Part shown: in pieces, positions 169-2,492 of the stretch
How positions within the stretch are numbered: position 1 is the stretch's first letter
How the letters are laid out: every line of letters starts with the position of its first letter
Assembly (NCBI GenBank): GCA_030611945.1
Contig: JAUWOV010000085.1
Coordinates: 1-6,711, forward strand
DNA from: a bacterium
GTDB taxonomy: Bacteria > JAHJDO01
Reading direction: 5' to 3'
DNA: 6,711 nt
Translations under genes and position numbers: made by a program
The notes under the pieces: generated by a model
Seen by the model: the letters and a program-made list of their open reading frames with translations, nothing else
Databases searched by the model: none
Told to the model about the DNA's origin: nothing

Positions 169-456
169 ATGACGGTTAAACCGCTTGGTGACAGGATCTT
201 AGTTAAGAGATTGGAAGGGGAAGACAAGATAGGAAGCATAATAGTTCCTGATGCAGCTAAGGAAAAGTCTCAGAAAGCAGAGATTATTGCTGTAGGAGAG
301 GGAAGAAGGACAGATGAAGGGAAACTGGTTTCCCTTGAGGTTAAAAAGGGAGACAAGATACTTATTGGTAAGTACGCAGGCACAGATATAAAGATTGACG
401 GCGAAGAATATATCATTATGAAGCAGGAAGATGTAATGGGGATTTTTAAGAACTAA
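169..456 (+). CDS. groES: Co-chaperonin GroES, divergent copy (GroES1)
   Basis: This 95-residue protein is the lid of the GroEL folding chamber and acts in the cytoplasm as a heptamer. The family is clear from PLGDRILVKRLE at residues 5-16, the VKKGDKI stretch at 58-64, YAGT at 69-72 and the closing IDGEEYIIMKQEDV. Length is normal. The mobile loop that docks on GroEL is unusual: residues 21-28 read IGSIIVPD where the family has GGI(I/V)LPD, so the second loop glycine is serine and the loop is one residue shorter than in the second GroES downstream. Two further positions depart from common forms: KEKSQ in place of KEKPQ at 31-35, and alanine 37 in place of the glycine before E-I/V-I/V-A-V-G. 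groEL follows after 32 bases, so the two are surely cotranscribed. The hydrophobic I-I-V tripeptide is kept, so GroEL binding is likely but may differ in strength. Confidence 0.95.
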   Translation: MTVKPLGDRILVKRLEGEDKIGSIIVPDAAKEKSQKAEIIAVGEGRRTDEGKLVSLEVKKGDKILIGKYAGTDIKIDGEEYIIMKQEDVMGIFKN

Positions 457-488
457 GGATAAAAAAACAAAAAAAGGAGTAATACAAG

Positions 489-2132
489 ATGGCAAAGCAA
501 TTAAAGTTTGACGAAGATGCAAGAAAGGCGATTTTAAGCGGTGTTGAGCAGCTTAGCAGAGCTGTAAAGGTAACACTTGGACCAAAAGGCAGAAATGTTG
601 TATTGGACAAGAAATTCGGATCTCCAACAATCACTAAAGATGGAGTTACAGTCGCAAAGGAAATTGAACTGGAAGAACCATATGAGAATATGGGCGCTCA
701 GATGGTAAAGGAAGTTGCGTCAAAGACTTCTGATGTAGCAGGCGATGGAACCACAACAGCTACAATACTTACAGAAGCGATATACAGAGAAGGACTTAGG
801 AATGTTACAGCCGGCGCAAATCCGATGGCGCTTAAGAGAGGGGTTGATAAGGCAGTAGGTAACGTTGTGGGAAGCCTTAAAGGATTGAGCAATCCTGTTA
901 AAGACAAAAAAGAGATATCTCAGGTTGCTACAGTCTCAGCAAATAACGATTCTACGATCGGGAATATAATAGCGGACGCTATGGATAAAGTCGGTAAAGA
1001 TGGAGTTATCACAGTTGAGGAAGCAAAGGGAATGGATACAACTCTGGATATCGTAGAAGGTATGCAGTTTGACAGAGGTTATTTGTCTCCCTATTTTGTG
1101 ACTGACGCAGAAAGAATGGAAGTGATTCTGGATAATCCGTATATTCTTATTCATGAAAAGAAGATCTCCAATATGAAAGATCTGCTTCCGCTATTGGAAA
1201 AAGTAGCGCAATCAGGCGCTCCATTCCTGATTCTTGCTGAAGAGGTTGAAGGCGAAGCTTTGGCAACAATGGTTGTAAATAAGATCAGAGGCACTCTAAA
1301 ATGCGCATGTGTCAAGGCTCCTGGTTTTGGAGACAGAAGAAAGGCAATGCTTGAGGATATTGCTATTCTTACAGGAGGAAAGGCAATCTCCGAGGATCTT
1401 GGGATCAAACTGGAAAATATCACTCTTAACGATCTGGGAAGAGCAAAGCGCGTTACAATTGACAAAGAGAACACAACTGTTGTTGAAGGAGCAGGAGAAA
1501 GAAGCGACATAGACGGCAGAATATCCCAGATTCGCACACAAATAGACGATACAACATCAGACTATGACAAGGAGAAACTGCAGGAAAGACTGGCAAAGCT
1601 TGCTGGAGGAGTTGCGGTTATTAATGTTGGAGCTGCGACAGAAACAGAGATGAAGGAAAAGAAAGCAAGAGTTGAGGATGCGCTTCATGCAACCAGAGCC
1701 GCTGTTGAAGAGGGCGTAGTTGCAGGCGGCGGAGTTGCCTTGCTTAGATGTATAGCTGATCTCGGGAAAATGACACTGAAAGGAGATGAAGCTATTGGGC
1801 TTAATATTATCAGGCGCGCCCTTGAAGAGCCTGTAAGACAGCTTGTGAGCAATGCTGGAGCTGAAGGAGCCATTGTTGTTCAGGAGATTCTTAAGAAAGA
1901 GAAAAATGTTGGATTTAATGTAGCAGACGATAAATATGAGGATATGTTTGCAGCAGGTATTGTGGATCCAACAAAGGTAACAAGAACAGCTCTTCAGAAT
2001 GCAGCAAGTATTGCCGGATTATTGCTGACAACAGAAGCGCTTATAACAGATATCCCTGAAAAGGAAAAGATGCCTCCAATGCCTGCAGGCGGCGGCGGAA
2101 TGCCAGGCGGTATGGGCGGAGGAATGTACTAA
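489..2132 (+). CDS. groEL: Chaperonin GroEL (Hsp60)
   Basis: The gene encodes the 547-residue ATP-dependent chaperonin that encloses unfolded proteins in a double seven-membered ring in the cytoplasm. The length is standard and the frame is intact. Visible hallmarks are the ATP-binding GDGTTTAT segment with Asp86, the second catalytic aspartate in [12 protein letters not shown] (Asp397), the Cpn60 signature [12 protein letters not shown] at 404-415, and the flexible Gly-Met tail at about 533-547. Apical-domain residues known from the E. coli protein to bind substrate and GroES are all hydrophobic here (Tyr198, Tyr202, Phe203, Leu233, Leu236, Leu258, Val262, Val263, one less than E. coli numbering). 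GroEL therefore looks fully competent to accept either GroES. An AGGAG site ends nine bases before the ATG. It lies between two groES genes, 32 bases after the first and 72 before the second. No sign of transfer or damage is seen. Confidence 0.99.
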
Positions 2133-2152
2133 AATAAGTAAGAAATGGTTAA

Positions 2153-2184
2153 TTGTAGAGGCACGGCGTGCCGTGCCCCTACAA
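2153..2184. repeat. 32-base palindromic element between groEL and groES2
   Basis: The segment is an almost perfect inverted repeat. GGCACGG at 2160-2166 pairs with CCGTGCC at 2171-2177, extended by the C2167-G2170 pair. After one A-C mismatch (2159/2178), TTGTAG at 2153-2158 pairs with CTACAA at 2179-2184. It is far richer in G+C than its surroundings. From memory, GTAGGGGCACGG-type palindromes recur in many bacterial genomes, including cyanobacteria and candidate phyla, and this copy looks like one member. It ends six bases before the Shine-Dalgarno sequence of the second groES. No T run follows, so it is not a standard terminator. It would fold in the mRNA and may affect transcript processing or the amount of GroES2 made. 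The dispersed-repeat assignment is recall and inference; the palindrome is directly visible. Confidence 0.8.
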
Positions 2185-2204
2185 ATTCATAAGGAGATAA
2201 AAAT

Positions 2205-2492
2205 ATGAATTTAGTACCTTTAGAAGATAGGGTTATTGTAAAGAGATTGGAAGCTGAGGATAAGACAAAGGGAGGAATCATTCTTCCTGATACAGCTAAG
2301 GAAAAACCGCAAAAGGGTGAGATTATAGCTATTGGAAGCGGAAAAATGTTGGAAGACGGAAAGAAACAGTCAATGAGCGTTAAAAAAGGCGACAAAGTTA
2401 TTTTTGCGTCATACGCAGGCACAGAAGTGCAAATTGACGGTGAAGAGCATCTCATAATGAAAGAGGAAGACATCTTAGCTATTATAGAATAG
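2205..2492 (+). CDS. groES: Co-chaperonin GroES, canonical copy (GroES2)
   Basis: This 95-residue second co-chaperonin would also cap GroEL. It carries the standard mobile loop [18 protein letters not shown] at residues 23-40, with both loop glycines and the following glycine that the first copy lacks. [12 protein letters not shown] at 5-16 and VKKGDKV near 59-65 complete the family pattern. By hand alignment it matches the first GroES at about 54 of 94 positions, which is an old duplication or separate acquisition, not a recent copy. AAGGAG at 2191-2196 sits eight bases before the ATG. It is the last gene of the chaperonin operon, behind a stable palindrome and ahead of a strong hairpin. The canonical loop makes this copy the better candidate for the general GroEL partner. 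Confidence 0.97.

Follow-up and report, generated by a model that had tools for sequence, protein, structure and literature searches.

The window, that is, the whole stretch of DNA analysed here (contig C74, 6711 bases, within a 1.66 Mb draft assembly of 119 contigs that is 91% complete), carries one groEL gene flanked by two diverged groES genes. Judged by its sequence, this two-lid groE operon is genuine, has been conserved, and belongs to an uncommon type. On balance, the order groES1-groEL-groES2 is best read as a tricistronic heat-shock operon which would furnish one GroEL chamber with two functional co-chaperonin subunits.

The groE locus and its two co-chaperonins

The features of the locus are collected in Table 1. 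The original prediction of an intact groES-groEL-groES cluster, with lids matching at about 54 of 94 positions, was borne out, as the reading frames are uninterrupted and the pairwise alignment of GroES1 and GroES2 gives exactly 54/94 identical residues (57% identity overall, with differences at 43% of positions). In Pfam searches the Cpn10 family scores 103 bits for GroES1 and 128 bits for GroES2 (cut-off 21), and Cpn60 scores 273 bits for GroEL. The match of GroES1 to PF00166 (103.3 bits, cut-off 21.1) covers residues 3-92 of 95.

Table 1. Features of the groE locus and its neighbourhood in the window.
Feature	Position	Strand	Description
IS-like element, right end	1-137	.	multi-copy; its transposase absent from contig; sits at the place of the groE promoter/CIRCE of sister species (three species)
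groES1 Shine-Dalgarno (aaggaggg)	151-158	+	sequence; equivalent position in relatives
groES1	169-456	+	95 aa; mobile loop at residues 18-31, of GS type and short by one residue
groEL	489-2132	+	547 aa; sole Cpn60 of assembly; standard GroES-docking helices, GGM-type tail
Intercistronic hairpin, REP-like palindrome	2156-2184	+	directly 5' of groES2 Shine-Dalgarno; compensatory changes, five species
groES2	2205-2492	+	95 aa; canonical mobile loop TKGGIILP
Hairpin with T-rich tail, probable operon terminator	2513-2562	+	kept in five species
CtpB-like S41 peptidase with PDZ domain	3' of groES2	+	
LysM protein, OmpA-domain (Pal-like) lipoprotein	beyond S41 peptidase gene	-	
UTP-sugar uridylyltransferase	past LysM and OmpA-domain genes		

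In the alignment, the mobile loop of GroES1 reads DKI-GSIIVP (short loop KIGSIIVP), with one residue fewer than the GroES2 loop, and the usual GG before the hydrophobic contact tripeptide is replaced by GS. The tripeptide itself, I-I-V at residues 24-26, is invariant in the genus and corresponds to I-I-L in GroES2. The first copy had been described beforehand as having a GS loop one residue short and the second as canonical, and the alignment agrees. Loss of the Pro of KEKPQ and of Gly37 had also been listed as alterations of the first copy; both are present, but neither is unusual. Ser is found instead of this Pro also in L022 and L111, and E. coli GroES likewise has Ser at this position. As for Gly37, Ala often takes its place in the nearest other phylum, and Clostridia have examples too (many of L166-L183; L054, L055, L121).

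Among about 147 GroES proteins of other bacteria, the loop is shorter by one residue in six (L025, L119, L120, L126, L184, L188) and the second loop Gly is replaced in eight (L058, L119, L122, L126, L129, L130, L136, L180). Both changes are combined only in L119 and L126, each an extra copy in an unrelated genome. Neither the GG nor the loop length, common as both are, defines a GroES, and what is unusual in GroES1 is only the one-residue deletion together with the GG to GS change, each part being known in other GroES. The GSIIV sequence is also present in L129 of genome G171 (92% complete), which has one groEL and two GroES, both with GS loops (GSII). Since both GroES of this genome are GS-looped and it has one GroEL, a lid with a GS loop can probably function. 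As a separate observation, 7 of 20 extra or low-scoring GroES from multi-groES genomes have a short loop or a replaced second Gly (L119, L120, L122, L126, L129, L130, L136), which suggests a recurrent loop change in second lids within a 20-copy sample chosen from low scorers.

The AlphaFold model of GroES1 predicts a Cpn10 fold with a mean pLDDT of 81, and the low confidence of residues 18-31 (below 50) is as would be expected of a mobile loop. All PDB hits of GroES1 at E<=0.001 are co-chaperonin (Cpn10) chains, the first being a Thermus protein. The docking helices of GroEL are LLPLLEKV and EALATMVVN, the latter reading EALATLVVN in others; these helices hold the residues known to bind GroES. 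The binding residues are retained, with one conservative L-to-M change in a neighbour.

Conservation, copy number and rarity

The genus sample consists of five genomes, namely, the window genome and G001, G002, G003, and G004. When relatives were searched for the same three-gene order, it was found in identical form in G002, G003, and G004; in G001, where the contig opens within groEL, groES2 follows it. An order that recurs in congeneric genomes is not an assembly accident. The GroES proteins of G002 and G004 are identical, so that the GroES1 comparison comprises three distinct sequences. Within-genus identity between distinct sequences is 88-95% for GroES1, 92-95% for GroES2, and 93-95% for GroEL, and the pairwise dN/dS ratios are 0.050-0.077, 0.031-0.080, and 0.038-0.069, respectively. 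By these sequence measures, both lids are under equally strong purifying selection.

It had been considered that the first copy may be drifting, with confinement to a single genome and relaxed selection as the expected signs. What was found is the reverse, with three more genomes sharing the order and the ratios given above. Over residues 18-38 of GroES1, as many as six codons carry silent differences, and the protein changes across four genomes only at residue 18 (E/D) and residue 29 (A/T). Because the loop stays fixed as its codons change silently, at a dN/dS of 0.05-0.08, the altered loop is kept by selection and is not decaying; drift of GroES1 is ruled out by dN/dS and by the loop codon counts. 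Purifying selection on GroES1, taken alone, does not demonstrate a lid role.

A profile search of the whole window assembly returned two Cpn10 and one Cpn60, with no additional member of either family beyond those of the operon in this 91%-complete genome. The same set of two Cpn10 and a single Cpn60 occurs in G002 and G004, and G003 has it together with a remote phage-type Cpn10. This third GroES-like protein of G003 has 85 aa (L037 2316-2573, G003:C117) and is encoded beside a phage-type Dam methylase; it is probably a third lid gene of viral origin. Another GroEL paralog pairing with the first copy had been named as an alternative partner, but a second GroEL serving GroES1 was found neither in the window assembly nor in the congeners. 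A second groEL could be missed because none of the assemblies is closed (the window genome is 91% complete, in 119 contigs); none was seen in the other four genomes either (G001 being 62% complete).

The rarity of the arrangement was assessed in 385 genomes, five of them of this genus, with Cpn10 listed in all and Cpn60 where there were at least two Cpn10. Two groES flanking one groEL were found in 0 of the 380 genomes outside the genus, a count which copies cut by contig ends would escape, and the 44 genomes covered for the G231 phylum also lack the arrangement. G122, taken up as a further case, actually has groES-groEL-groES-groEL (L057). A full-text literature search for the phrase "groES-groEL-groES" gave no match among the papers covered. 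Two Cpn10 with one Cpn60 are present in 20 of the 380 genomes, in 14 families, with the second groES located elsewhere or, in G005 (L058), in tandem upstream. Two groES have also been reported in 402 of 4,861 genomes, together with 435 groES genes without a neighbouring groEL (PMC5406781). The unusualness claimed in the original prediction thus holds for the gene order but is overstated for the possession of two GroES with one GroEL, which is also known from Bdellovibrio (PMC3464611).

Operon anatomy and the origin of the two lids

A CIRCE element (TTAGCACTC-N9-GAGTGCTAA) lies 48-74 nt 5' of groES1 in G002, G003, and G004, with one mismatch in G003. In the window genome, hrcA is preceded by its own CIRCE on contig C98, and a search of the assembly gave no other; at groES1 there is none, and the IS-like end is found there instead. 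In the window species, HrcA may no longer control the groE operon, or the promoter of the operon may lie in unassembled sequence. Because the IS-like element occupies the expected CIRCE promoter site there, the case for shared heat-shock control is drawn from G002, G003, and G004.

Comparison of window positions 1-168 with L034, L035, and L036 indicates that the IS-like element replaces the groE CIRCE promoter. The element has a DDE_Tnp_1/DUF772 transposase and imperfect terminal inverted repeats GACTCCTGCAAAAT/ATTTTGCAGTAGTC; besides the window end, copies are found at about 331-1962 of G000:C15 (L205) and in L202, L204, L206-L209, L211, and L213. In 10 of 13 copies examined, drawn from four species, the right end directly precedes a strong Shine-Dalgarno sequence and is 29-33 nt from the start codon of the unrelated gene that follows. 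Such placement may mean that the element targets ribosome-binding-site regions; alternatively, it may reflect selection or a promoter function.

The gap between groEL and groES2 contains a strong hairpin in all five species, ending right before the groES2 Shine-Dalgarno, with compensatory changes in 3 of 13 pairs. Copies of its palindrome, GTAGAGGCACGGCGTGCCGTGCCCCTAC, are scattered through the genome, where a search allowing up to 2 mismatches gave 17 matches counted by strand, against 0 in the control, so that the hairpin resembles a REP-type repeat kept at this site. The groEL-groES2 gap gave no promoter-like match. Downstream of groES2, all five species have a GC-rich hairpin and, after it, a T-rich tail. 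The simplest reading of this anatomy would be one transcript in which groES2 is set apart by the conserved hairpin, and this hairpin may change the groES2 ratio.

In a GroEL tree of 501 columns, the genus adjoins the phylum of G231 plus G028 with support 98/99. The tree of both GroES sets, which had been proposed as a check, was built twice on 96 columns, and GroES1 and GroES2 fall apart in both of these weak trees; a single clade of the two is not rejected (p-AU 0.097). Synonymous sites between GroES1 and GroES2 are near-saturated, with a dS of about 2.1. The LIGKYAGT sequence and Ala37 of GroES1 are common to one GroES set of the G231 phylum, and the FSSYAGT-type sequence of GroES2 is common to another. 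Three genomes of this sister phylum (G231, G386, G394) have two groES, each with a groEL of its own next to it, and the two proteins fall into separate groups of the tree; the G231 pair carries the LIGKY signature, as GroES1, on one protein and FSSY, as GroES2, on the other. These paired groESL with separate GroES groups fit an origin from two old groESL pairs, in which one groEL would have been lost and its groES kept at the 3' end, a step put forward more tentatively than the rest. Given the weakness of the 96-column trees and the p-AU value, duplication within the lineage with fast divergence is possible; a recent duplicate pair is disfavoured by the trees and the dS, though not formally rejected. 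The idea that GroES1 was recently acquired from a known donor was also discarded, the best outside match being 65% to L040 (Deltaproteobacteria UBA2221), which has a canonical loop.

Probable use of the two lids and comparison with known systems

Since both lids are conserved under the same strong selection around the only groEL, two different lids are probably in use on a single chamber in this cell. This part of the original prediction stands as far as sequence goes, on the grounds of a single GroEL, equal constraint (about 0.03-0.08), standard docking helices, and one cluster. Both GroES would assemble as seven-fold lids on the same GroEL, either as separate lids or in mixed rings. The Gly to Ser change plus the shorter loop should alter flexibility, and Val for Leu should weaken the contact, so the short GS loop would give GroES1 a different on/off behaviour, and the hairpin would set the amount of GroES2 relative to GroES1 and GroEL. 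The full proposal, which we advance tentatively, is of an operon hard-wiring two lid types to one GroEL, mixed or alternating, with a hairpin-tuned GroES2 share, and thereby changing dwell time or client range.

It is rather unlikely that GroES1, like Arabidopsis Cpn10(1) with Cpn20, is inactive alone and acts only by modifying hetero-heptamers with GroES2. The shared gene cluster with its expected co-expression and the overall identity of the two lids are compatible with it, and in the plant precedent a close paralog without activity of its own becomes active in mixtures (PMC4242682). However, GS-loop GroES are apparently the only lids in G171, and one-residue-shorter loops are found in GroES directly beside groEL (L184, L188), so that such loops can probably work alone. 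More improbable is that the lids are interchangeable and that the second gene merely raises the GroES:GroEL ratio; extra groES genes are common, as the published counts given above illustrate (PMC5406781), and the two lids share a gene cluster and a selection level, but copies kept for dosage alone should either remain alike or disappear, whereas here 43% of positions differ and the loop difference is fixed. A role of GroES1 outside the lid function, with GroES2 as the true lid, is very improbable. The altered loop and the unequal family similarity (103 versus 128 bits) would suit it, yet the tripeptide, the fold, and the operon place are kept, and constraint on the loop, the GroEL-contacting part, equals that on the rest of the protein. 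It is hardly credible that GroES1 is a duplicate in decay, or an artefact of assembly or contamination, since its confinement to one genus and the draft state of the assembly are outweighed by intact frames, by the dN/dS, and by the three further genomes that share the order.

Studies of alternative chaperonins have mostly dealt with additional copies of GroEL; in the present case it is the lid that has been duplicated, diverged, and kept, on a chamber that stays constant. A fixed loop change on a constant chamber affords a clean natural test of lid identity. Two-lid bacteria have so far been discussed mainly for Bdellovibrio. In Bdellovibrio bacteriovorus, which has groES1-groEL plus a separate groES2, one chamber with different lids was proposed by the authors (PMC3464611), and the genome, as in the present case, has one groEL and two diverged groES. 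Unlike here, where all three genes are in one cluster, the Bdellovibrio groES2 is encoded elsewhere, is 117 aa long, and is expressed late in predation (PMC3464611).

The chloroplast Cpn10/Cpn20 system (Arabidopsis, PMC4242682; Chlamydomonas, 7ekq) also has several lid subunits in one chaperonin system. There, mixed rings have been shown, Cpn20 consists of two fused domains, and the lids serve Cpn60 alpha/beta, whereas here both lids are single-domain bacterial proteins for which mixed rings are hypothetical. The canonical HrcA/CIRCE groESL operon, with CIRCE followed by groES-groEL, is matched in G002, G003, and G004; the present operon differs from it by the second, different groES and the conserved hairpin 3' of groEL, and in the window species by having no CIRCE at the operon. 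Tandem groESL-groESL (G122, L057) and groES-groES-groEL (G005, L058) have, as here, an extra groES in the cluster, but G122 has two groEL and G005 has both groES upstream of groEL. Two-lid GroE systems are already known from Bdellovibrio and chloroplasts, and the present one is a variant with both groES flanking one groEL.
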